64,000 bases of DNA from positions 93,012-157,011 of IMG/VR virus record IMGVR_UViG_3300028569_002586; one strand, written 5' to 3'. The notes beneath the pieces were generated by a model. It did not search any database and had not been told where the DNA came from. It worked only from the letters and a program-made list of their open reading frames with translations. The first letter of the stretch is position 1; every line of letters starts with the position of its first letter. Of this stretch, positions 13,649 through 60,641 are shown one piece after another. Made by a program: the position numbers and the translations under genes. The stretch is from a virus.

Positions 13649-14464
13649 ATGGATAAAATAGGAGTTGGTGTAGTTACTTGCAATAGACCGAGTTTCTTTC
13701 TTAAATGCTTTAATTCAATACCTGTTGATATTGAACTAGTAGTAGTTAATGATGGTGCAGATTTCTCTGATATTGAAAAGTTAAAACAAAAAAGACATTT
13801 TGACTATATACATAACAATGTTAATCTAGGTGTTGGCAAATCAAAGAACATACTTTTTAAGCAGCTGCTTGCCAAAGATTGTGATCATATATTTCTAATT
13901 GAAGATGATATTGTTATTAAAGACAAGAGCGTCTTTAAAGAGTACATTAAAGCTCGCAATTTAACTGGTATTCAGCATTTCAATTTTGGCTATCACGGCC
14001 CAGCTAACAAGAACGGTGTCTCTGGTGGACCGCCCAAACCGAGATTCATTGTTGACTATGGCAACACAAAAATTGCCATCAATCATCACAGTGTTGGTGC
14101 ATTCTGCTATTACACAAAAGATGTCTTGAAAAAAGTTGGCCTAATAGATGAAGAATACACTAATGCCTTTGAGCACGTAGATCATGATTATAGAATTGCT
14201 AAAGCTGGGTATAGTACGCCATATTGGAATTTTGCTGACATGGCTAATAGTTGTGATTTTCTTGAAGAAATAGAATGTTCAGAGAAGAGCAGTTCTATAA
14301 GACCAAGAGATGACTGGAGCTCCAATATTAGAAAAGGATATGAAACATTTAAAACAAAACACAACTGCTACCCTGCATTTCAAGGCGGGGTACCTGATAC
14401 TGGGGAGCAGGAAGTCAAAAATATTATGAAACAAATTTATAAAAAATATGCTAAACGAAACTGA
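13649..14464 (+). CDS. Family 2-type glycosyltransferase
   Basis: GT-A fold protein, 271 aa: GVGVVTCNRP at the N-terminus, VVVNDGA (nucleotide-sugar site), NLGVGKSKN and LIEDDI, whose acidic pair fits the metal-binding DxD position. It opens the run of tightly packed glycosyltransferase genes; its 3' end overlaps the next by 17 nt. Donor and acceptor unknown. Confidence 0.8.
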   Translation: MDKIGVGVVTCNRPSFFLKCFNSIPVDIELVVVNDGADFSDIEKLKQKRHFDYIHNNVNLGVGKSKNILFKQLLAKDCDHIFLIEDDIVIKDKSVFKEYIKARNLTGIQHFNFGYHGPANKNGVSGGPPKPRFIVDYGNTKIAINHHSVGAFCYYTKDVLKKVGLIDEEYTNAFEHVDHDYRIAKAGYSTPYWNFADMANSCDFLEEIECSEKSSSIRPRDDWSSNIRKGYETFKTKHNCYPAFQGGVPDTGEQEVKNIMKQIYKKYAKRN

Positions 14465-15203
14465 TTTTATTATTCCTGTGTTCATTGATCATGCAGATAG
14501 ATTGCGCAATCTAAAAATCATGCTCTCTTATCTCAAGAAGATTGGTGCAACAAATGTGTATGTCCGCGAGTACTTTGACAGCGCACATAAAACAGGCGAA
14601 CTACAAGCATTGTTTCCTGAGTATCATTTTTCAAGCAAAGAAAGAGATGCGCCTTTCTTCAATAAAATGACATGTGTAAATGAAGTGTTCAAGATGTTTT
14701 CCAGGGGCAAAGTTGTAAGCTTTTATGATGTAGATGTTCTCTTTTCAAAGAAAGACCTCATTGAAGCATCAGATTTAATTCTCAAGAAACAGGCTGATGT
14801 TGTATATCCATATAATGGTTATTTTTATGATGTACCTGCAGAAACTGTAAAGCTACTGGAGACAGATCTCACTACACCTATTAATCTCAATACATGCAAA
14901 CTGTTCAATACTGGCTCACATGGTGGTGGTGCACTTTTTGACAGACAGGTATTCGAAGATGGTGGCATGTGTAACCCTAATTTTAAAAATGTTGGTTATG
15001 ATGATGATGAAATAAGAGTTAGATTTGATAAACTCAATTACAAGATCACAAGAACAAAGGGTGTACTTCTGCACCTAAATCATTTTCGTGGTGCCACCTC
15101 TTTTAATCATAATGACTACACAACAAATAATGTCAATGAGGTCGAAAAAGTAACACACATGACAAAAGAACAGTTACAAGCATACATCAAGGGCTGGAAA
15201 TGA
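14448..15203 (+). CDS. Glycosyltransferase (galactosyltransferase-like, GT-A)
   Basis: A 251-aa protein with FYDVDVLF (DxD motif) in the centre, GYDDDEIRVR resembling the GW/GxExD acceptor motif of GT7-type galactosyltransferases, and a late His motif LHLNHFRG. Overlaps both neighbours, so part of one translational unit. Probably adds a hexose to the same glycan as its neighbours. Confidence 0.7.
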   Translation: MLNETDFIIPVFIDHADRLRNLKIMLSYLKKIGATNVYVREYFDSAHKTGELQALFPEYHFSSKERDAPFFNKMTCVNEVFKMFSRGKVVSFYDVDVLFSKKDLIEASDLILKKQADVVYPYNGYFYDVPAETVKLLETDLTTPINLNTCKLFNTGSHGGGALFDRQVFEDGGMCNPNFKNVGYDDDEIRVRFDKLNYKITRTKGVLLHLNHFRGATSFNHNDYTTNNVNEVEKVTHMTKEQLQAYIKGWK

Positions 15204-15997
15204 ACATACCCTTACTCAAGGGCGGGCTTTGCAATCAATTATTTCAAATTGCTGCAACCTATGCTCATAGCTTAAAACACAATCAAGAATTAGGCATAAA
15301 TTATAATTTTCCATTTGTTGCTCATCAAGGCCTACATCCAAGAAAATACAAAGATAACTTTTTTTCAAAAATACAGTCCACAGACATTATGCCTAGCAAA
15401 ACATTCAATAATCTTGGCTTTACTCTTACTGATATCCCTGTCGAACACAATCTAATTGTCGATGGGTATTTTCAGTGTTATAAATTTTTTGAAAATTATA
15501 CGGCTGAAGTACAGAATTTATTTGTGTTCCCTGATAGCATACAACAAAAAATAACCAAAGCTGTTGAAAAGATTAATAAACCTCTTTGTGCTATTCATGT
15601 GCGCCGCGGTGACTACAAATCGCTTGCACCACACCACATGGTATGCAATACAGATTATTACATTGAATGCGCTAAAAAAATAAAACAAATAAATGCAAAT
15701 GCTCTCTTTATTGTCATGACTGATGACAAGCAGCACGTTTTCTCTGAATTCAAAAAACAGTTTGAAGATGGTGATTTTATTATTAGTAATTCTGCCGATG
15801 AATTAGAAGATTTATACCTGCTTACACAAGCTGACTATATAATTGGCAGCAATAGTTCTTTTTCATGGTGGGGTGCTTTCTTTAATAAGCAGAAAAAGAA
15901 CACACTTTTCCCCGAAGTATGGTTTGGTCCAGAAGGCGTTAAGGAATACGGAAATCCTGATATCTATACTGATTATATGGAAAAAGTAAAAGTATAA
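15200..15997 (+). CDS. GT11-type alpha-1,2-fucosyltransferase
   Basis: 265 aa. The N-terminal GGLCNQLFQIAA is the family entry motif, HVRRGDY (133-139) is the signature of alpha-1,2/1,6-fucosyltransferases that bind the GDP-sugar, and SNSSFSWWGAFF is the third conserved block. Transfers L-fucose, or a related L-sugar, from a GDP donor. ATGA overlap with the preceding gene. Confidence 0.85.
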   Translation: MNIPLLKGGLCNQLFQIAATYAHSLKHNQELGINYNFPFVAHQGLHPRKYKDNFFSKIQSTDIMPSKTFNNLGFTLTDIPVEHNLIVDGYFQCYKFFENYTAEVQNLFVFPDSIQQKITKAVEKINKPLCAIHVRRGDYKSLAPHHMVCNTDYYIECAKKIKQINANALFIVMTDDKQHVFSEFKKQFEDGDFIISNSADELEDLYLLTQADYIIGSNSSFSWWGAFFNKQKKNTLFPEVWFGPEGVKEYGNPDIYTDYMEKVKV

Positions 15998-16013
15998 CCT
16001 ATAATATATAAGA

Positions 16014-16631
16014 ATGAAAAGCTATAGCCAATACGGACAGGATGTTGCACTTTATAATAATTTTTTTAAGGACAAGAAGAATGGTTATTTTGTTGAAATT
16101 GGTGCCTTCGATGGCCTTCTTCTGAGCAATACGTATTTGTTTGAAGAAAGAGGTTGGGATGGTGTTTGTGTTGAGCCAATGAATGACGCCTTTGAACAAT
16201 TGAAAAAGAACCGCAAATGCAAGTGCTTTAATTACGCAGTAACCAACAGGGATGATGAATATCTTGACTTTTGCAAAATTACTGGTTTTAATAATATGTT
16301 AAGCGGGGTAATAGATTCCTATGATGATAAACATAAAGAAAGAATTCTTAGAGAGTGTCCACAGCTTGGAACAAAAGAAAAAATTAAAGTTAAAAATATT
16401 CAGTTTAATGACCTAATTACAGAGACAACAATTGATCTCCTGTCTGTTGATACAGAGGGTGGAGAAGATGCATTGCTCAATTCAATTGACATGGTAAAAT
16501 ATAAAATTGATGTGATTTTAATTGAAGATAATTACAGCCAGTATCGTAACACACTGAGTGAGCAAATTAAAGACCTGTACAAGATATCCGATATCTCTCT
16601 TGGTGATGACATTGTGCTCAAGAGAAGATAA
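16014..16631 (+). CDS. FkbM-family SAM methyltransferase
   Basis: 205 aa: YSQYGQDV, then VEIGAFDG (SAM-binding loop), CVEPM, and SVDTEGGE. These are the hallmarks of FkbM methyltransferases, which often O-methylate sugars. Lying among glycosyltransferases, it probably methylates a glycan residue. A second FkbM gene lies at 17460. Confidence 0.82.
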   Translation: MKSYSQYGQDVALYNNFFKDKKNGYFVEIGAFDGLLLSNTYLFEERGWDGVCVEPMNDAFEQLKKNRKCKCFNYAVTNRDDEYLDFCKITGFNNMLSGVIDSYDDKHKERILRECPQLGTKEKIKVKNIQFNDLITETTIDLLSVDTEGGEDALLNSIDMVKYKIDVILIEDNYSQYRNTLSEQIKDLYKISDISLGDDIVLKRR

Positions 16632-16632
16632 A

Positions 16633-17469
16633 ATGATGGTGGTCAATCTTTTTGATGGTAATTTTGCACATACACCAAGTGTTTGTGGTTTTGATTCTGC
16701 AACTGCATGGAGAAAACCTACAAAGATATCTTACGTAAGAGATCAACCATCATTTGACGGCGTGACAATATTCACAGATGATTTCATCTTCTCCTCACAG
16801 GTTGATAAAGTGCAGTCAAAATACAAGATTGCTTGGTGCCAAGAGTCTCCTGTTGTTAAGCCGTACTCTCATGCAGCTATACATGGGGTAGAGAGTAAAT
16901 TTGATTTCATCTTCACCCACAACAAACAAAAGACAGCTGAAAAACCTGAAAAGTATAAATTCCTACCTGCAGCATGCTGCTGGGTGAAAGACTATGGTTT
17001 TGATATTGAGAAAAAAACAAAACTAGCTTCTCATATATTCACAGGGAAAAACTTTTCTGAAGGACATGCACTACGTCACAACATAACACAGCTGCTTAAA
17101 AACTCTTCTATTGACATATTTGGTGAGAAACAGTTTAATAAAACTGAAGTTCATCAGCCTTATAAATTTTCAATTATCGTGGAAAACTGCAAATCACCAG
17201 GGTATTTTTCTGAAAAAATTATAGACTGTCTCATACAAGGCACCATTCCTATATATTGGGGTGACCCTACCATAAGTTCCTACTTCAACATGAAGGGTAT
17301 TATTAATTTTAATAACATAGATGAAATAGCTAATCTTAAAATTAGCAAGAAATATTATGATGAAAATTTAGATGCAGTAAGAGAGAATATTGCTACATGT
17401 GAAAATAAATATCTCTCTTCTGATGATAATCTTGCTGATTTGCTTAAAGAGGTAGGTGTATGCTCTTAA
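16633..17469 (+). CDS. GT10-type alpha-1,3-fucosyltransferase-like protein
   Basis: I take the ATG at 16633, just after the previous stop, giving 278 aa. The C-terminal half has FSIIVENCKSPGYFSEKI and GTIPIYWGDP, the classic signature of GT10 fucosyltransferases (E/N-rich block, then SEK and P-x-YWG). It uses a GDP-L-sugar donor. Overlaps the next gene by 10 nt. Confidence 0.82.
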   Translation: MMVVNLFDGNFAHTPSVCGFDSATAWRKPTKISYVRDQPSFDGVTIFTDDFIFSSQVDKVQSKYKIAWCQESPVVKPYSHAAIHGVESKFDFIFTHNKQKTAEKPEKYKFLPAACCWVKDYGFDIEKKTKLASHIFTGKNFSEGHALRHNITQLLKNSSIDIFGEKQFNKTEVHQPYKFSIIVENCKSPGYFSEKIIDCLIQGTIPIYWGDPTISSYFNMKGIINFNNIDEIANLKISKKYYDENLDAVRENIATCENKYLSSDDNLADLLKEVGVCS

Positions 17470-18080
17470 ATCTAGATAATCTCATCTCACGATATAATAT
17501 GAATATAACAGGTGTTATACACATAGGAGCACATTTTGGTGAAGAATATGACTTGTATAAAAAACTACCATCCATAAAAGATATAATATTCTTTGAACCT
17601 GATACTGATAGCTTTGCAAAATTAACTGAAAAAACAAAAGACGATAAAAAAGTAATACGCATTAATCGCGCACTTGGCCCTTTCTCTTGTGAAGCATATC
17701 TGCATAAAGAAACAGCAAACAACGGTCAATCCAACTCTTTACTCGAACCACATTTACATGTAAGACAATATCCTGGGATACAATTTACGGATAAAGTAAA
17801 AGTAAAAGTGGAACCACTTGATAGATATGAACCAGGATCCACATTGAACCTTATTAATATTGATGTGCAGGGTGCAGAATTAAATGTTTTTCTAGGTGCA
17901 TCTAATACTTTAAAAAACAATATACAATATATTATTACAGAAGTTAACCGTGATGAGTTGTACAAGAATTGTGCACGGGTTGAGGACTTGGATTACTTTC
18001 TTGGTAAATTTAATTTTAAAAGAGTAGAAACAACTTGGGACGGTGTTACGTGGGGTGATGCTTTTTATATCAAAAACTAG
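17460..18080 (+). CDS. FkbM-family SAM methyltransferase
   Basis: 206 aa: GVIHIGAHFGEE (SAM loop), FFEPD, then INIDVQGAEL, typical of the FkbM family. It differs from the FkbM protein at 16014 and probably methylates another position or sugar of the phage glycan. Confidence 0.8.
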   Translation: MLLNLDNLISRYNMNITGVIHIGAHFGEEYDLYKKLPSIKDIIFFEPDTDSFAKLTEKTKDDKKVIRINRALGPFSCEAYLHKETANNGQSNSLLEPHLHVRQYPGIQFTDKVKVKVEPLDRYEPGSTLNLINIDVQGAELNVFLGASNTLKNNIQYIITEVNRDELYKNCARVEDLDYFLGKFNFKRVETTWDGVTWGDAFYIKN

Positions 18081-18084
18081 CGCC

Positions 18085-18894
18085 ATGAATGATACACTTA
18101 CTGTAAACCATAATGCTGGTTTTTTTTCCTGTTGCTCAGTAAGATTACATGAATTAATTAAATTCTTCAATTACAATAAAAGAGAGCCTGTTAATCTAGA
18201 CATCAAACATCAATTCTCTGGCTATAGAATTAACCCTGCCGATACCAATGAAGATGTCAATTCCTTATTCTTTAAGACACCAGATAAGGAGGAGATATCA
18301 TTTAAAAGAGAGGTTGATTATGACCATGGCTATCAATTTGAATCATATGCAAAATTTGACTTTGAAGGTATTGTGCCATTTATTAAAAAATATTTTGCTC
18401 CAAGCGATACAGTATTGGAATTTGTTAATAATATTATACAAAAATATAATATTAATTTTGAAACAACTGCAGGTGTCTTTTACAGAGGCAATGATAAATG
18501 CACAGAAACAGGAATCGGGACATATGAGGAGTATTTTAATAAATGCAATGAACTTATAAACTTAAATCCAGATATAACATTTCTTGTACAAACTGATGAG
18601 CTAGAGTTTAGAGATTTTTTTAGCTCTAAATTTAAAAACAGTTTTTTTATAGATGAATTACCAGTTATAAACAAAAATACAAACACCGCAATGCATAACA
18701 TGATAGGGTCATATGATAGACCAAAATTTGGTATGCGCATACTAGGAATAACTTACTTACTATCAAAATTAAAATATCTTATCACACACTCTGGTAATTG
18801 TAGTGAATGGGCAATATTTTATAGAGGCAATGCTAATAGTGTATACCAATATCTCAAGCATCCAAGTACTGCTGTTACGGGAGAATGGGTATAA
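18085..18894 (+). CDS. Putative fucosyltransferase-like glycosyltransferase
   Basis: Starting at the ATG at 18085 the product is 269 aa. FYRGNDKCTETG resembles the R-G-D/N-K block of GT23/GT65-like fucosyltransferases, and THSGNCSEWAIFYRG resembles their C-terminal donor-binding loop. Assignment rests on these motifs and on context in the sugar island. Confidence 0.55.
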   Translation: MNDTLTVNHNAGFFSCCSVRLHELIKFFNYNKREPVNLDIKHQFSGYRINPADTNEDVNSLFFKTPDKEEISFKREVDYDHGYQFESYAKFDFEGIVPFIKKYFAPSDTVLEFVNNIIQKYNINFETTAGVFYRGNDKCTETGIGTYEEYFNKCNELINLNPDITFLVQTDELEFRDFFSSKFKNSFFIDELPVINKNTNTAMHNMIGSYDRPKFGMRILGITYLLSKLKYLITHSGNCSEWAIFYRGNANSVYQYLKHPSTAVTGEWV

Positions 18895-18904
18895 TTAATA
18901 GATT

Positions 18905-19840
18905 ATGAAAATAGTAGAAAATTTCACCGGCAATTATGCAGAAGATCCAATAACATTCTTAAACTTTACTCCCCTGCAAGATATTAATGTTACACTCCAT
19001 CTCGGGCTAGGTACAACAATAGACAAAAACAATAGTAGTAGAAAGTTTTATCTTGAGCTTGAAGAGCCAAATAGATTTTGTGTACACGAAGCAGCATTGA
19101 AATATCGTTCTGATTTTATTCATTGTGATAAAATTCTCACATTATGTCCATACACAGCTACATACATGAATAAAGAATTCTACAAAAGGAATGTAGCTAC
19201 ACCAATATTTTTTCCATTCAACAAAGACTTTATACCTGCAGATTTTAACAAAAAATACAGTGTTCTGTATTCTGGTTACACACAGTCACGTTATCATACA
19301 CAGATGTTAAGCGCTATATCAAAATTTGATAATAATGTCATAATTTCATTTAGACCTTTTGACAAAGTAACACATGTTAATGTGTCATACAAGGAAAAAA
19401 TTAATCTTTATGCTCAAACAAAAATTGCTGTTGTACATAATATTATAATAAACAAGGGATTAACAATTGGCTCTCTACAGAATACAGCTTCACAAATCGG
19501 ATTAACAAACATCAGAGAAAATCATGCATTTAATTTCCTAGAAACCGACAATGTGATGCCTCAATTAAAATCTAGAATATTTGAAGCTGCGTTTACTAAG
19601 TGTATAATTCTATGCCAAAGGGATCCTTTTAATGTTATAGAGCAATATTTTACACCTGAAAAAGAATTTGTCTATTTCAATGACCATGCAGATTTAGAGA
19701 ATAAAATTAAATTGATACTTGAAAATTATGATGACTACAGTAAGGTAGCAGACAGTGCATTTACAAGAGCTATCAATAATTATACTACAGATCACTTAGT
19801 CAAAAAAATTTATGAAATACATAGTAACAACAACTATTAA
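18905..19840 (+). CDS. Putative glycosyltransferase (GT-B, CgeB-like)
   Basis: 311 aa. Alternating beta strands and helices, YSVLYSGYT in mid protein, and a C-terminal PQLKSRIFEAAFTKC block with an acidic E for donor binding, typical of GT-B glycosyltransferases of the CgeB/Glyco_trans_1_2 type. Overlaps the next gene by 29 nt. Confidence 0.6.
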   Translation: MKIVENFTGNYAEDPITFLNFTPLQDINVTLHLGLGTTIDKNNSSRKFYLELEEPNRFCVHEAALKYRSDFIHCDKILTLCPYTATYMNKEFYKRNVATPIFFPFNKDFIPADFNKKYSVLYSGYTQSRYHTQMLSAISKFDNNVIISFRPFDKVTHVNVSYKEKINLYAQTKIAVVHNIIINKGLTIGSLQNTASQIGLTNIRENHAFNFLETDNVMPQLKSRIFEAAFTKCIILCQRDPFNVIEQYFTPEKEFVYFNDHADLENKIKLILENYDDYSKVADSAFTRAINNYTTDHLVKKIYEIHSNNNY

Positions 19841-20747
19841 TAAACCTACAAAAGCTACATTAGAATATTGTAAGTTTACAGATTGGAAATTCATTATTGT
19901 GGGTGATTTGAAGACACCACATGATGAGTATCTTGCTCTTGAAAAGAAGTATAATGTTGAATACTTGTCACCTGAAAAGCAAGAAAAACTATATAAAGAC
20001 ATTAGCGACATAATTGGATGGAAGACCATTCAGAGAAGAAACATAGGCTTTATTGAAGCATACAATCAAGGCGCCCAAGTTATTGCTACCGTTGACGATG
20101 ATAATATTCCCTACAGCCATTGGGGTAAAAATATTCTAGTTGACAAAGAGATTGAAGTTGATGTTTACGATCCAAAAGACCATGACATTTTTGACCCTCT
20201 TTCAGTTACAGATTCGAATCATGTATGGCATAGAGGATTTCCAATTGACTACCTGCAGAAAAGACATAATGTTGAGTACAAAGGAAAAGCTTTTCGAAAA
20301 ATCTTAGCTCAAGCTGATCTTTGGGATGGTGATCCTGATATTGATGCTATAGCTAGATTGACTCATAAACCAATAGTTAAGTATTCTGAAATCACTGCCC
20401 CTTATTGCAGTAACTTCAGATCACCATTTAACAGCCAAAATACATTCATATCCAGATCAGCTCTAAAATACTATAGCGTATGGCCACATGTAGGCAGAAT
20501 GGATGACATTTGGGCAAGTTATTACTTCCAACAAAAATTTCCTAACAGCTTAATATACAATACTGCTTCTGTTTATCAGGAAAGAAATATTCAAGATCTT
20601 ATAACAAACCTAGAGAAGGAGATCATAGGATACAGAAATACTCTCAACTTCACCAAACTACTAGAAACCACAGAAGTAAAAGACATACCCTTTGTACCAC
20701 AAGCTACCAAAGACTTTATAGTTGAATACGAGAAACATTTCAATTAA
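19812..20747 (+). CDS. Putative glycosyltransferase (STELLO/reversibly glycosylated protein-like)
   Basis: 311 aa. IQRRNIGFIEAY followed by TVDDDNIPY gives an acidic DDD metal site as in STELLO-like (DUF288) and RGP-type proteins. C-terminal WPHVGRMDDIWASYY fits acceptor-side motifs. The donor sugar is unknown. Likely works on the same glycan as the surrounding enzymes. Confidence 0.6.
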   Translation: MKYIVTTTINKPTKATLEYCKFTDWKFIIVGDLKTPHDEYLALEKKYNVEYLSPEKQEKLYKDISDIIGWKTIQRRNIGFIEAYNQGAQVIATVDDDNIPYSHWGKNILVDKEIEVDVYDPKDHDIFDPLSVTDSNHVWHRGFPIDYLQKRHNVEYKGKAFRKILAQADLWDGDPDIDAIARLTHKPIVKYSEITAPYCSNFRSPFNSQNTFISRSALKYYSVWPHVGRMDDIWASYYFQQKFPNSLIYNTASVYQERNIQDLITNLEKEIIGYRNTLNFTKLLETTEVKDIPFVPQATKDFIVEYEKHFN

Positions 20748-20756
20748 AATTTAACA

Positions 20757-21749
20757 ATGAAAACAGCATTAGTATTAGGTGCAGGTGGGTTTATAGGCAG
20801 CCATCTTGTTACAAGATTAAAAGAGAATGGTTATTTTGTTCGTGGTGTTGATTTAAAACTTCCAGAATATTCAGGATCCACAGCTAATGAATTCATACTT
20901 GGTGATTTGCGCAACCAGCCTTTTGTTGATAAGATTTTAAACATCAATTGTAATGCACAAGACAAACAAGCAGTACCTTTTGATGAGGTTTATCAGTTAG
21001 CTGCTGATATGGGTGGTGCAGGCTATATATTCTCTGGTGATCATGATGCAGATGTGATGCATAATTCAGCTACCATAAATCTTAATGTTGCTGATGTTTG
21101 CAAAAGACACGGTGTTAAGAAAGTTTTTTATAGTAGTAGCGCTTGCATGTATCCAGAGCACAATCAGCTTGATCCTAACAATCCAAACTGTGAAGAAAGC
21201 TCAGCTTACCCAGCCAATCCTGATAGTGAATATGGTTGGGAAAAGCTTTTTAGTGAGCGTCTCTTTTTAGCTTACAAGAGAAATTATAATTTAAATGTCT
21301 GTATAGCAAGATTTCATAACATCTTTGGCCTACAAGGCTCCTGGAGCAATGGCAAAGAAAAGGCACCTGCTGCTATCTGCAGAAAAGTAGCAGAAGCAAA
21401 AGATGGCGGTGAAATTGAGATTTGGGGAGACGGTGAACAGACAAGAAGCTTTCTGTACATTGACGAGTGTTTGGATGGTATATTGAAGCTAATGTCCTCT
21501 GATTTCACTGGCCCAGTAAACATTGGCTCAGAACAAAGAGTTACTATCAATCAATTGGTAGACATTGCTTGTGATATTGCAGGCAAAAAGCTAATCAAAA
21601 AACACATCAAAGGACCCACAGGTGTAAGGGGTCGCAATTCAGACAACAAGCTCATTAAAGAAAAATTAAATTGGGCACCTTCGCAGGATCTTAGAATTGG
21701 CTTGGAAAAGACATACAATTGGATTAACAGTCAAGTTCACAGCAGTTGA
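20757..21749 (+). CDS. GDP-mannose 3,5-epimerase-like enzyme
   Basis: 330 aa extended SDR. GAGGFIGSHL binds NAD; LAADMGGAGYI, SSACMYPEH, the YGWEK (catalytic Y-x3-K) block, ARFHNIFG and REKAPAAxCRK-like segment (KEKAPAAICRK) closely follow plant-type GDP-mannose 3,5-epimerase, as do GDGEQTRSFLYIDEC and PVNIGS. That enzyme makes GDP-L-galactose (and GDP-L-gulose) from GDP-mannose. GDP-L-galactose is a 6-hydroxy analogue of GDP-L-fucose, which fits the GT10/GT11 enzymes nearby. Confidence 0.82.
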   Translation: MKTALVLGAGGFIGSHLVTRLKENGYFVRGVDLKLPEYSGSTANEFILGDLRNQPFVDKILNINCNAQDKQAVPFDEVYQLAADMGGAGYIFSGDHDADVMHNSATINLNVADVCKRHGVKKVFYSSSACMYPEHNQLDPNNPNCEESSAYPANPDSEYGWEKLFSERLFLAYKRNYNLNVCIARFHNIFGLQGSWSNGKEKAPAAICRKVAEAKDGGEIEIWGDGEQTRSFLYIDECLDGILKLMSSDFTGPVNIGSEQRVTINQLVDIACDIAGKKLIKKHIKGPTGVRGRNSDNKLIKEKLNWAPSQDLRIGLEKTYNWINSQVHSS

Positions 21750-21773
21750 TATTTTAAAATTTTATACTAGAAT
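21746..21773 (+). promoter_or_regulatory. Leaderless-type sigma70 promoter
   Basis: TTGATA (21746-21751), 16-nt spacer, TAGAAT (21768-21773), 6 nt, ATG at 21780. Confidence 0.6.
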
Positions 21774-21779
21774 AGACAT

Positions 21780-22364
21780 ATGATTATTGACCAGAAGATC
21801 TACGACGGTAACCTGATTCATTCACGATTTGCATACAAGTACTTTAAAGACCGTACGCTCCCCATTGGCAACATTGTTGTTTTCAGAGCGCCCATGAAAG
21901 TGGAAGCTGCAGGCATGATTGACACAGAAGACATTCTTAATAATGATTTCATCTACAGTGATGATGCTATTAACTTTTGCTGGGAAATTCCTAACCTGGA
22001 TCCCTTTGGTGCAGTTGCTTGGCAGAGACTTTTCAATACCCAGATAGCAAACATACTTGGCAATACGTATCTCAAAGCACCCATTGAAGTTGATGGTGAT
22101 GATTTAATTGTTCACAAGGAACACAATCAAGGTGGCATTGAGCAGAAGAAGGGCAAGTGTAGTGTCAGTATTACATATTCTAAGAACAATGTTGCTTTAG
22201 GTCATACGGGTATCAATATTGCTGCAGGCAAGAAAGCACCTGCATTTGCTTACTCTACTAATCTTACAGATGAACAAGCAACAGCTTTTATGAAGAATGT
22301 TATTGATGTATTCTATAGCTTAAATGATGACATCTTTATTGCCACCTCCAAAGTTATTGCTTAA
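21780..22364 (+). CDS. DUF366-like conserved phage protein
   Basis: 194 aa. MIDTEDILNNDFIYSDDAINFCWEIP and the WQRLF block recall DUF366-type proteins of T4-like phages, whose function is unknown to me; quoted in part: TEDILNNDFIYS, PFGAVAWQRLF, EVDGDDLIV. The first gene after the sugar island, it has its own promoter and its stop overlaps the next start (TAATG). Confidence 0.55.
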   Translation: MIIDQKIYDGNLIHSRFAYKYFKDRTLPIGNIVVFRAPMKVEAAGMIDTEDILNNDFIYSDDAINFCWEIPNLDPFGAVAWQRLFNTQIANILGNTYLKAPIEVDGDDLIVHKEHNQGGIEQKKGKCSVSITYSKNNVALGHTGINIAAGKKAPAFAYSTNLTDEQATAFMKNVIDVFYSLNDDIFIATSKVIA

Positions 22365-55187: not shown

Positions 55188-56630
55188 TTGCCTAATGTAC
55201 CGGATTTTCGTGATTTAGAGAGAGGAAAAAGATCTGCATTAGATAGATTTTCCTTCAAGAATGTAATTGGTGGTATATCTGTGCAAAATGCGGTACCTAG
55301 GTTCATACCTCCACCTGCACCACAAGACAACCCCGTCTTTAGCTATGTCACTGATAATAATGAAGTTATTGTTATCACAAACCCAGAGACACCTAACTAC
55401 ATCATTGTATCTACAAATGTGGCAACATTTAGTGCGGCTTTTGACTCACAAGTACTTGGATTTACGAATAATTTTGATATCAGTGATTTTTCTAACTGTA
55501 GCTTAATTTTTAATTATGGTATTGGTTTATCTGCTAATGTACAAGAAATTTTTGTAACTGAAAATGCTGCCATATCAAGCAATCTAGGAAACCTATACAC
55601 AGTTTATTACACAAATACAGGCTCTGTTATTGTTGGGTTTGCTGCCAGCAATGTGTATGTACCACCTATCACAAGTTATCCGCCCGTACCATCTCCAACT
55701 ACAACACCTACTCCCACACCCACAATCTCTGTGACACCAACCATTAGTGTCACACCCACCATTTCTGTTACTCCAACACCCACACCTACACCAACACGAA
55801 CACCCTCTCAGACACCTACCAATACTTTACCTCCCGGCGTGACGCCTTCTCCTACACCGCCCTCTTCAACTCCTACACCGACACCTACTGATAGTAGAAC
55901 GTTTATTACATATGGTGTTGCGGTTTCTGCTACTAAGTTAGATATAATCGCCGATGCACAATGTAATTTTGGTTTCTTTATGGGCGGTTATTTTGGTATA
56001 CAAGCTGAAAATTATTATCTCTTCAGTTCAACATTTAGTGATTATATTGAAACCCCGATATATGAATACGGAAACGGTACTTGGAGAATACGTAATAGTG
56101 ACGGTGATGTATATTTCACTAATAGTTATCCTTTAGCGGATAAGTTCCCTGCAAATAACTGGCAACGGGGTTCCTTCTTTGATACATATTGTACTACATA
56201 TTCAGCTGTTCCTGTATTTGTTGCTGCTGTTTTCCCCACACCCACGCCCACACCAACAAATACACCCACACCTTCAAGAGCACCTGCTCTTGTGTACAGT
56301 AGCAGTTACATACCTTTTGAAATAACAAATACAGGAATATCTTACAATATTAGTCAAATTGGCACAGGCAACCCACCCCTGACATGCTTCAGAGGTACCA
56401 ATTATGATTTTATAGTTCTAACCCCATCTCATCCTTTTGCTTTAAGAATATCAGCAGGGAACACATCTTCACCGGTTTCTGGGGCTTATAATAATAATCC
56501 TGCTGCAGGCATCACATCAGGCAGAGTAATGTTCACTCCTAATAGTGCAACACCTGACACAATTTACTATCAATGCACAATTCATAGTTCAATGATTGGC
56601 ACAATAAGTATAAAAAATTACAGTTTATGA
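55188..56630 (+). CDS. Fibre-like virion protein with MPNVPDF module, Pro/Thr stalk and cupredoxin domain
   Basis: 480 aa from TTG. The N-terminus MPNVPDF then FSFKN is shared with two later genes, probably a docking module. Pro/Thr-rich stalks (about residues 162-235 and 346-363) separate domains. The C-terminal domain has H415 in SHPF and C463, H466 and M469 in [12 protein letters not shown], the full ligand set of a type 1 blue-copper site. Likely displayed on the virion; whether it binds copper is untested. It overlaps the protease gene by 4 nt. Confidence 0.75.
55690..55890 (+). repeat. Pro/Thr codon repeats of the fibre stalk
   Basis: In-frame imperfect repeats of ACACCTACT/ACACCCACC-type units encoding TPT and TISV. 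Similar repeats occur at 56230-56285 and 59110-59285, giving homology for recombination between fibre genes. Confidence 0.8.
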
Positions 56631-57904
56631 ACGTTTACAAAGCAGTAGAATACCTAAGATCACTAGACATGAGCTCTCTACCCTACAAAGGGCTAACAGG
56701 CATTTACTACGATGATAAAACTGTCAACGGAATTGATACAGGAGAAAAATGCATTAAATTTTATTTTGAAACAAAAAAATCTTTATCTGAGCTTACTGCA
56801 GAAGAAATTGTACCGCAAACTGTAACTTACAACAACACTGTATTCCAAACAGACGTTGAACAAGCTCCTATATCAGAAAAACTAGTAACAGATTGTCACA
56901 ACTTGAGCAGCGCTGTTGAACCAGTGAAGAGCAACTACATCAAGAGAAGACCTCTCATGGGAGGGTGCAGCAGCATTAACATAGGAAGTTCAGATGCAAC
57001 CTTAGGCATCATGGTTCTAGATAAAAAAGATGGTCAAGTAGTGGCCCTGTCCAATTCTCATGTGTTTGCTGCAAGTCAATTGCATGGTTATTATGCCGGG
57101 GGCAATGAGATCACAGGCAACAATGTTTTAGGATTAAGTGCCAGGCAACCTGGTACAAATGGTTATAACCCTTATGGCAGTGTGGTTCCTGCCATTGATT
57201 ACATAGGCAATTGCAAAAGAGCTGTAGTGATAGGCAACAAAGATTATACAACTGATGGCTCTGGATGGATAAGAGACACCACAGTGGATGCTGCCATAGT
57301 GGGTGTGAATAAAAATTTAATCTCCAGTGTGAGTGTGAGTGCCATAGGCCTGAATGCTTCTGGTCCATTTGCATTTGCATCTGACAATGAAATTACTTCT
57401 TTGTTGGATCCTGTTTCTCCCAATTACAAAGCCCCAGTTTTCAGATCTGGAAGAACATGTGGTCCCATAGGAGCTCCAGGAAACACATATTCATGTGCAT
57501 TGAGTGTGCAATCATTTGGCATAGAACCAGTGGGAGCATACACAGGGTATGTATCAAATTTCTCTGAGAGCTTTGTAATAGAAGGCAATGTCATTGCCAC
57601 CAGAGGTGGAGATTCTGGATCTGCAATATATGCTTTGCTAAGTGCCAATGTACCTGCTCTTTCCACATGGAAGTGCATAGGACTGGTGTTTGCTGGGCCC
57701 AGTGTCACTCCAAGCTTTGGTATAGGAAGCAGAATCTCAGCTGTGTCTCAAGATCTAGATGTGGTTGCATGGAATGGCATAGTGCCTGTTCTGTCTGCAA
57801 GAACTGATACCATAGTCTTATCTGCAGGTGAATATTTGCCATATTCCACAAGTGCCATTATCACTCTATCAGGCAGAAGATATCATCAATTGGGCAGAGC
57901 ATAA
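56627..57904 (+). CDS. Trypsin-like (S1-fold) serine protease in the fibre cassette
   Basis: 425 aa. The triad is visible: H145 in LSNSHVFA, D221 in [10 protein letters not shown] and S330 in [10 protein letters not shown]. It has no signal peptide and lacks the MPNVPDF module, but is coupled (ATGA) to the cupredoxin fibre upstream. About 110 N-terminal residues precede the protease domain and about 70 follow. It may cut host surface proteins, the fibre itself or a partner; the target cannot be read here. Confidence 0.82.
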
Positions 57905-57926: not shown

Positions 57927-57934
57927 CATAAGTA
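57927..57934 (+). promoter_or_regulatory. Late octamer variant CATAAGTA
   Basis: CATAAGTA, 5 nt, ATG at 57940. Confidence 0.55.
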
Positions 57935-57939
57935 TAGGT

Positions 57940-58953
57940 ATGCCCAATGTACCAGATTTTAGAAATATCGCCAGAGCAACCAGAGCAGGAACTGATGTCT
58001 TTTCCTATAAAAACATAATACAGAGAACCAATCAAACAGGCGGTTCAACTGCCATGGCATCACCAGAGCCCATACAACCAGGCTACACAGCAACTGTAAG
58101 AACAACATATCCTGGTGCAGTACTGGCTGAAGCATTTGGTAGCAGGTGCACTTCTTTCATACAGACATTGTGTGGATATGCACCAAATGATGTGGTGACT
58201 GCAGCCAGCATATGTTCAGATGATAAAAACGCTCCTGTATTTCCAGGCAATACTTTTGGTCAGTACCCAGTTTCTCTGCAAGCATTTCTGGGACCTTTCT
58301 TTGCTGGTGGCATTGGTGGGTATCCTTTCCCTGGCATTGTGGGCACCTTTGCATGGGCATCACATGTGACTGATACTGGTGCATTGTTCATTTACTCACA
58401 ACCTCACATTGGCATCACAGCTGCAGGGCAAGTGGGATTCATGGTGAGACAAGGTCAATCTGTAAATTCAGCCACATGTGGTGCTGTGAATGCTGCACAG
58501 AACAGAATCATTGGACCATTGAGTGCCACACCTCCTGCATTTCCAAGCGCAGAATTTACTGTGAATGACTTTCAACAATACACCCTGACAAATATTCTGT
58601 ACTCCAACACAACCACAAGAAATGCATTGACAGCCAACAGAGCTGCAAATGATGATGTGTCCAATCCAACCAATGCAGGATTTGGTGCAAGAATGAAAAT
58701 TGCCACAGATGCCATCAGGGATGAAGCTAACAGTGTGCTTGAAACAACTATTATTCCTGCAGCATATGCAGCTCTAAGCGGTGCATTAGGTGCAGCAGCC
58801 AACTTCAACAGTGACTTGTTCTTGAGCTCTGGCACCTTCATCAATGTGGATGATGGTTACAAGGCATATGTGGATGTCACCAGCTTCAAGAAATACAATC
58901 CTGACACTCAAACATTCACAAATTACACATCACAGTTTAGCGCGGGATTGTAA
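57940..58953 (+). CDS. MPNVPDF-module protein fused to an LCIB-type (beta-carbonic anhydrase-like) domain
   Basis: 337 aa. Residues 1-26 carry the shared MPNVPDF/FSYKN module. The rest follows the LCIB/LCIC family: TYPGAV at the start of the domain, C92-S-D94-D-K96 at the CxDxR site, PHIGITAAGQVG with H156, then RQGQSVNSATCGAV with C180, and a C-terminal AIRDEANSVLETTIIPAAY plus GYKAYVDV, all in family order. C92, H156 and C180 would bind zinc. Lys replaces the usual Arg of the Asp-Arg dyad. LCIB proteins act on CO2/bicarbonate; activity here is unknown. Confidence 0.7.
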   Translation: MPNVPDFRNIARATRAGTDVFSYKNIIQRTNQTGGSTAMASPEPIQPGYTATVRTTYPGAVLAEAFGSRCTSFIQTLCGYAPNDVVTAASICSDDKNAPVFPGNTFGQYPVSLQAFLGPFFAGGIGGYPFPGIVGTFAWASHVTDTGALFIYSQPHIGITAAGQVGFMVRQGQSVNSATCGAVNAAQNRIIGPLSATPPAFPSAEFTVNDFQQYTLTNILYSNTTTRNALTANRAANDDVSNPTNAGFGARMKIATDAIRDEANSVLETTIIPAAYAALSGALGAAANFNSDLFLSSGTFINVDDGYKAYVDVTSFKKYNPDTQTFTNYTSQFSAGL

Positions 58954-58974: not shown

Positions 58975-58982
58975 TATAAATA
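58975..58982 (+). promoter_or_regulatory. Late octamer TATAAATA
   Basis: Perfect consensus, 6 nt before the GTG at 58989. Confidence 0.7.
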
Positions 58983-58988
58983 TTATTT

Positions 58989-60641
58989 GTGCCCAATGTA
59001 CCTGACTTCCGTGATTTATCAAGACAGCAAAGAGCTGCTACAGATAGATTCTCTATAAAGAACGTTATCGGTCAAATATCTGGTCAGAGTGTGGTACCAC
59101 CTGCAGGTCCTTCTCCAACCCCAACTCCTAGCATAACACCTACCATCACACCCACTGTAACTGTTACACCCACCAACACATGCACTCCAACCATTACTCC
59201 AACCATTACTCCAACATCTTCTGTTACTCCCACTGTGACACCCACAAATACAGTTACACCAACAATCACACCAACTCAAACACCACCACCAACTCTTCAG
59301 CTACAAGCCATGGATGAAGTTGCTATAATATACAATCAAAATAGCAGTGATAGCGTTGCTGTAGCAAATTATTATAAGAATAATAGACCCAACTTTAATT
59401 TAGTTCGTACAGTGGGTCTGGATATTCCACAAGCTATTTACCCCGCAAGAATAGATGGGAGTGGAAATTATTTCTGTGTATCAGGTTGTGATATTGATTC
59501 ACCTTATGAGGGTTGCAGAAAATATGATCACATCAGTATAACATTAGCACAGACCCAGATAGCAAGTGTATTATCTGCATACAAAGTACAATATCCCACA
59601 ACAAAATATTTTGTGTTCATGATTGATGTACCCATTATCACTGTGCCTGATGCAGTGTTTAATGTACCTACACTCTCAGCCAGTCAAATACCTTTACTGG
59701 GTCAAAATGTTACAGGCATGGTTTATGCTAGCGCAGGCATATGGCCATTTTATATCACAGCAGCATTGAGTGCAGATTGCATTGCATACATTGACAAGAT
59801 AAAAAACGCAACACAATCTGGTCTCACACTCTATAAAGACAGGGGCACCATATACAGTGAAGACTCATATGGTGCAGGGTATGATAATCTGTTATGGGCA
59901 AAATATCCACAAACAATGTCACAGTTGAGCGCTTTCTCTGTTTATAGATCTGGCAAGCCAACAGCCAATGCACAAACCACTGGATTGACAGGCATCTTCA
60001 TGGATCAAAACACATACTGGCCTCACAACACAGGCAACATAACAGTATCTTCTGTTGCAGCATGGTCATCTTGGGGCTTCAATGGCAGAAGGTACAGTCC
60101 TTATTCAAATTCAGATAGCTTATCTGCATGGAATTGGTACAATGATCCCAGATCACCTGGCAAGCTCACCTTCACAGGCAATGACACAGGTTGGTATTTC
60201 ACCCTCACACTTGAATCTTGGAATGGACAACCACATGGTGGTTCATATGGCTATTTTGGTGGATATAGTGGTGTAGGCAATACTTCTTGGGGCAGCTTTC
60301 CAGCAGCATATGCTGGCATAAAAGATTTTAATGCTTTCAAATTGTCATCTCAATTCAATCAAGGACTACGACCCATAAGACACTCATCATACACTCAGTA
60401 TTTTGCCAAGAGCGCATTTGGTGGATCCAACTATGAATACACACCAGTTGCATGGGCTGGAAACACAGCAGAACCATTTTACCCTGGATCACTCAATATT
60501 GAATATTTGAATTACTGGATGTCAGGTGCCACAGCATATGAATCAATAAAAAATAATATAAACAACACATTCAGAATACTTGTCATAGGAGATCCTCTGG
60601 TGAGACTGCAAGGAGTGGTACCTGCGCTCGCACCCCGTTAA
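58989..60641 (+). CDS. MPNVPDF-module protein with Pro/Thr stalk and TIGR03790-like domain
   Basis: 550 aa from GTG. After MPNVPDF/FSIKN and a Pro/Thr stalk (about residues 41-98), the main domain starts VAIIYNQNSSDSVAVANYY, and ends with VIGDPLVRL; both resemble the TIGR03790 family of bacterial proteins of unknown function (VxxxYNxxSxxSxxxAxYY and GDPLxR). The middle is rich in Trp, Gly and Tyr. Likely a receptor-binding or surface-active virion protein. Confidence 0.6.
   Translation: MPNVPDFRDLSRQQRAATDRFSIKNVIGQISGQSVVPPAGPSPTPTPSITPTITPTVTVTPTNTCTPTITPTITPTSSVTPTVTPTNTVTPTITPTQTPPPTLQLQAMDEVAIIYNQNSSDSVAVANYYKNNRPNFNLVRTVGLDIPQAIYPARIDGSGNYFCVSGCDIDSPYEGCRKYDHISITLAQTQIASVLSAYKVQYPTTKYFVFMIDVPIITVPDAVFNVPTLSASQIPLLGQNVTGMVYASAGIWPFYITAALSADCIAYIDKIKNATQSGLTLYKDRGTIYSEDSYGAGYDNLLWAKYPQTMSQLSAFSVYRSGKPTANAQTTGLTGIFMDQNTYWPHNTGNITVSSVAAWSSWGFNGRRYSPYSNSDSLSAWNWYNDPRSPGKLTFTGNDTGWYFTLTLESWNGQPHGGSYGYFGGYSGVGNTSWGSFPAAYAGIKDFNAFKLSSQFNQGLRPIRHSSYTQYFAKSAFGGSNYEYTPVAWAGNTAEPFYPGSLNIEYLNYWMSGATAYESIKNNINNTFRILVIGDPLVRLQGVVPALAPR

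Follow-up and report, generated by a model that had tools for sequence, protein, structure and literature searches.

We report that a gene at positions 57940–58953 of a 64,000-nt window (i.e. the whole stretch of DNA analysed, bases 93012–157011 of the 157 kb virus record IMGVR_UViG_3300028569_002586) encodes a protein in which a short N-terminal module, shared with two neighbouring genes, precedes a domain that is, with virtual certainty, homologous to the LCIB family of carbonic anhydrases. On balance, the likelier reading is that the gene specifies a late-made virion protein that would display an active LCIB-type carbonic anhydrase. The observation goes beyond one phage: 51 IMG/VR contigs hold relatives, so this is not a single case.

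The LCIB-type domain and its active site

The main features of the gene are as follows.

57940..58953, + strand: coding sequence of 337 amino acids with an ATG start, N-terminal module plus LCIB-type carbonic anhydrase domain
57940..58023, + strand: putative virion-docking module (MPNVPDFRNIARATRAGTDVFSYKNIIQ), common to the 55188 and 58989 genes only
58084..58950, + strand: LCIB_C_CA domain, residues 49–337 (the Pfam match spans residues 74–228)
58213..58215, + strand: C92 codon, zinc ligand by homology (alignment)
58219..58221, + strand: D94 codon, active-site Asp by homology (alignment)
58363..58365, + strand: H142 codon, equivalent to PtLCIB4 H88 and probably to CrLCIB His162 (alignment)
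58405..58407, + strand: H156 codon, zinc ligand by homology (alignment)
58447..58449, + strand: R170 codon, probably equivalent to CrLCIB Arg194 (spacing and alignment)
58477..58479, + strand: C180 codon, zinc ligand by homology (alignment)

An earlier note on this DNA had proposed an LCIB-type domain here, and both sequence and structure searches bear it out. The window protein matches Pfam PF18599 (LCIB_C_CA) with an E-value of 2e-26 and 93.1 bits (curated cut-off 25), and its relatives score 64–120 bits. The strong phmmer matches of the window protein are LCIB-family chains only (6kfs, 5e-17; diatom PtLCIB4, PDB 5b5y, 9e-13), as are those of a PDB profile search built with 39 relatives. The C-terminal GTFINVDDGY block of the window protein aligns to the LIN.DD block of bacterial LCIB proteins, and in the relatives the equivalent block falls within the Pfam match. 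AlphaFold models built from 18, then 39 sequences reached pLDDT values of 74 and 80 and pTM values of 0.77 and 0.80. The predicted structure has the LCIB fold: Foldseek against the PDB gives seven matches with E < 1e-3, all of the LCIB family (best E-value 9e-13, TM ≤ 0.83 to target). The first ∼45 residues are modelled with low confidence, the module appearing as low-confidence short helices. Among the predicted viral structures of BFVD there is no match at E ≤ 1e-3 (the best, a Pandoravirus carbonic anhydrase with E 0.023, is not significant), and neither NCBIfam nor PHROGs holds a family covering the LCIB fusion.

Six residues make up the putative active site. C92, D94, H156 and C180 are present as the earlier note described, and H142 and R170, which it had missed, complete the set. 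All six are invariant in the complete relatives aligned (41/41 phage, 9/9 bacterial and 3/3 solved sequences). C92, H156 and C180 are, as we assume from knowledge of the LCIB family, the zinc ligands, and their clustering in space is implied because the predicted fold matches LCIB. H142 aligns with the His of AGHIPDGG (PtLCIB4 H88), which is seen directly in the solved H88A chain. R170 lies 28 residues after H142, the same spacing as for the corresponding Arg of PtLCIB4, and is likely the catalytic Arg. S93 aligns with PtLCIB4 S47 and is unlike the Arg of the solved S47R mutant. The suggestion that Lys96 replaces a usual Arg does not hold: column 96 is free to vary (K, V, I, L or A in phages; I, L or R in the bacterial sequences; V in the solved LCIBs), and a K96R mutant would therefore miss the point for which it was proposed.

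Conservation of the active site stands out from that of the rest of the domain. The phage copies diverge to ∼35% identity with all six catalytic residues kept, while most other Cys, Asp, His and Arg positions of the domain vary among them. Only 35/289 domain positions are invariant in the phage sequences, and the chance that all six active-site residues would fall among them is p ∼2e-6, a rough value since the sequences are related. Judged from the alignment, it is fairly likely that the domain would be catalytically competent.

We then compared the window protein with known LCIB proteins. It resembles PtLCIB4 in fold (TM 0.80–0.81 to target), in the six active-site residues and in the Ser after the first Cys, but structure-aligned identity is only ∼20%, PtLCIB4 lacks a docking module, and the stretch that follows the first Cys motif (GQ.P.SL) is longer in the phage proteins. 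Bacterial LCIB_C_CA proteins (e.g. L042 and L044) share the Pfam family, the catalytic residues and the C-terminal LIN.DD block; by contrast, they are stand-alone proteins of 230–280 amino acids and lie outside the phage clade (100/99).

Relatives, putative docking modules and late-promoter motifs

The window phage is T4-like: its major capsid protein matches PHROG 138 (3e-83) and its portal protein PHROG 213 (2e-102). IMG/VR scans with progressively broader queries returned 17, 24 and then 51 contigs with relatives of the LCIB protein. Among twelve records checked, seven contain a T4-type capsid gene (PHROG 138), four a crAss-type one (PHROG 11589) and one neither within its contig. For L108, the capsid protein has matches in crAss-like and Cellulophaga phages. 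The earlier note knew of no such phage protein, and indeed neither the window protein nor one crAss-like copy has a match at E ≤ 1 among 50,697 GenBank phage records. A literature search found no paper linking LCIB to phages or virions; in PMC13232217, carbonic anhydrase appears only as a size marker. A link to the CO2-concentrating mechanism, in which the note placed the algal LCIB proteins, is not supported: psbA is absent from the six records examined and the window capsid and portal proteins are only ∼31–34% identical to their nearest isolates, and we reject a cyanophage reading.

In a tree of 53 sequences, all 41 phage copies form one clade (support 100/99), which splits into a 16-row branch (95/90) that includes the checked crAss-like records and a 25-row branch (93/52) that includes the T4-like ones. 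The bacterial sample is thin, and consists of stand-alone LCIB proteins (L042 and L043–L051) from 9/392 sampled genomes of the Planctomycetaceae phylum, plus one confirmed match from a species-wide scan. No bacterial-type LCIB was confirmed in viral contigs. L042, from a Planctomycetaceae metagenome-assembled genome, is the bacterial LCIB closest to the phage clade and sits on a long branch.

Between the closest pairs, dN/dS is 0.03–0.51; as judged from these ratios, the fusion is under purifying selection. Compared with L002, the window fusion is 75% identical (fibre gene 44%, ribonucleotide reductase 80%); the values are 65% against L055 (capsid 75%) and 67% against L010 (portal 58%). Its identity is comparable to that of capsid, portal and reductase, and it thus appears to evolve at about the rate of core proteins, unlike a fast receptor-binding tip.

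In the 157 kb record, the window module occurs in exactly three copies, and the match with two neighbouring fibre-like genes that the earlier note had pointed out is confirmed at 56% and 61% identity over 27–28 amino acids. Related modules are present on four genes of L054 and three of L034. Overall, phage LCIB domains either lack a module or follow one of at least five N-terminal types: (i) a PNVPDFRD-type module in the window, L018, L034 and L036, with more divergent forms in L002 and L037; (ii) a MAIIPVSALKDAFA..TPDSNDF.NLIDT-type module in L003–L017, except L002 and L037; (iii) an RQYVDGLKQ(F/Y)D-type module in L038, L052, L067 and L068; (iv) a ∼134-amino-acid module in L082, L085 and L086; and (v) a KPY..G.IVPGSL...W.EV-type module in L089–L110. 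In L095, L096, L097, L104 and L105, an adjoining open reading frame bears the same module as the LCIB gene. A domain swapped onto modules common to its neighbours is the pattern expected of a displayed domain. The GenBank phages, searched for the origin of the docking modules, gave no convincing match.

Two side observations concern these modules. Next to the LCIB fusion of L096, the gene at L096:6837-7880 combines two copies of the N-terminal module of that fusion with a Fib_succ_major domain (E 6e-36). L052 (G007), L085 (G402), L067 (G403) and L038 each contain two different tandem LCIB genes, one with and one without a module.

Late-promoter motifs precede many of the LCIB genes. Of 13 T4-like copies, 11 have ATAAATA, the core of the T4 late promoter, 5–20 nt upstream of the start codon; the background frequency is 0.2–1%. 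The motifs of the window are as follows.

57927..57934, + strand: CATAAGTA, which may be a variant T4 late-promoter motif, 13 nt upstream of the LCIB start codon
55159..55166, + strand: TATAAATA, upstream of the 55188 gene
58975..58982, + strand: TATAAATA, upstream of the 58989 gene

The CATAAGTA variant also precedes two module genes of L036, and TATAAATA also precedes gene 54350. Since genes 55188, 56627 and 57940 either overlap or are spaced by 35 nt, transcription of the LCIB gene may start at the 55159 motif as well.

Proposed function and competing explanations

We propose that (i) the gene product would be made late in infection as a virion protein; (ii) its N-terminal ∼28 residues would dock it to the particle, as head-fibre N-termini of phage crAss001 dock in capsid pockets; (iii) the other ∼290 residues would fold into an outward-facing zinc carbonic anhydrase of LCIB type (beta-class-like), which is probably dimeric; and (iv) the enzyme would interconvert CO2 and bicarbonate plus a proton at the particle or host surface. 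For the phage, the enzyme might locally shift protons or bicarbonate at the surface of the host, or it might be delivered into the host cell. We hold with good confidence that the protein is a virion component, and display of the domain outside rather than packaging inside seems to us anything from reasonably likely to strongly favoured. The virion display suggested in the earlier note gains support from module swaps, a structural-gene neighbourhood and late-promoter motifs in relatives, while the place on the particle is itself a prediction from these features. In the relatives, the LCIB gene begins 14 nt downstream of the portal gene (L006 and L010) or 104–113 nt downstream of the capsid gene (L016, L055 and L056); in the crAss-like L108 it is flanked by the capsid gene and a further structural gene.

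The closest architectural parallel is found in crAss001, where the first 38 residues of head fibre gp21 and the first 58 of gp29 attach to capsid pockets and a C-terminal domain is displayed (PMC10172136). The authors of that study considered that uncharacterized proteins might have analogous roles in other crassviruses. The window protein likewise combines a short N-terminal segment, which is predicted to dock, with a C-terminal domain. By contrast, the domains displayed by gp21 and gp29 are phi29 gp8.5-like or Ig-like and include no enzyme, and the likeness in docking is put forward as an analogy.

Several points weigh against the proposal of a displayed, active enzyme. The advantage to the phage is not obvious, and directly upstream of the window LCIB gene there is only the CATAAGTA variant of the late motif. 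The structural model has low confidence at residues 96–102, beside the active site. Every phage relative is a metagenomic contig, many being close copies, and the counts given above are not independent events. Furthermore, Chlamydomonas CrLCIB and CrLCIC showed no activity in vitro despite their zinc-binding motif, a lack that a review ties to disorder of His162/161 and Arg194/193 (PMC5876011); a full residue set is therefore no proof of activity.

The inactivity of some LCIB homologues that carry the zinc motif is also what speaks for a domain that sits on the particle for binding or decoration only, with catalysis irrelevant or lost, and the architecture does resemble that of head fibres that display binding domains. 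A pure adhesin, however, would not need to keep an active site, and here the six catalytic residues persist in 41 phage copies down to the lowest identities while most other residues of the same types vary. This use of the fold, which the earlier note had offered beside catalysis, is thus disfavoured by the fully kept active site, and we retain it as an unlikely alternative.

Less probable again is that the protein is packaged in the head and ejected with the DNA, the enzyme acting in the host from the start of infection and the N-terminus serving as a packaging signal. LCIB genes adjoin portal and capsid genes in several phages, as described above. The head of crAss001, moreover, holds cargo proteins (PMC10172136). 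Against this, other carriers of the module in the window have long T/P-rich stalks, and in relatives it is found on repeat-domain proteins; all of these look external, and no head-protease site has been demonstrated.

An ordinary auxiliary metabolic enzyme of the infected cell with an incidental N-terminal peptide is a very improbable explanation: module-free copies exist (the second LCIB gene in L038, L052, L067 and L085) and giant-virus carbonic anhydrase genes are treated as auxiliary metabolic genes (PMC13037468), but the module-free copies directly adjoin module-bearing ones, and late-promoter motifs, structural neighbourhoods and repeated fusion to modules common to virion-like neighbours all argue otherwise. 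The giant-virus genes are comparable as viral genes for CO2/bicarbonate interconversion; they differ in belonging to eukaryotic viruses and in showing no virion fusions.

More tentatively, the proposal of a displayed carbonic anhydrase may extend to both phage groups: unrelated T4-like and crAss-like phages would possibly carry a working carbonic anhydrase outside the particle as an interchangeable domain on varied docking peptides, altering CO2, bicarbonate or pH at host contact. Most enzymes known from phage virions degrade glycans, cell wall or protein. If our reading is true, virion display would serve a conserved enzyme of small-molecule metabolism, which would be a new use, and the LCIB family, with its debated part in algal carbon concentration, would extend to viruses. 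A family of this size (51 contigs in two phage groups) could be looked for in viromes already available.

Neighbouring genes

Three genes flank the LCIB gene in the window.

55188..56630, + strand: module-bearing fibre-like protein, the C-terminal part of which matches PHROG 677 (baseplate wedge tail fibre connector)
56627..57904, + strand: protease-like protein without the module, lying between module genes (PHROG 20754 'protease', contains GDSGSA)
58989..60641, + strand: module-bearing protein with a T/P-rich stalk (a 25-residue stretch weakly resembles the start of TIGR03790, below cut-off)

The gene order is the same in the window and L034, i.e. module-fibre, then protease-like protein, then module-LCIB. 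The protease-like gene overlaps the stop codon of the 55188 gene, and its product is 89% identical to that of L034 (L034:3474-4805), being more conserved than its neighbours. Sequence searches found no solved relatives of this protease or of the C-terminal part of the 55188 protein, the last ∼110 residues of which look cupredoxin-like by eye. The product of L034:988-3531 is fibre-like and bears the module; by eye it has RCC1-like repeats, and it shares its C-terminal domain with the 55188 protein. A subtilisin-like protease (L054:8889-10847; mycosin/PrtP matches below cut-off) also occurs amid the module-bearing genes of L054. Elsewhere in the window, positions 13649-22364 hold a run of genes whose N-termini resemble glycosyltransferases and nucleotide-sugar epimerases.
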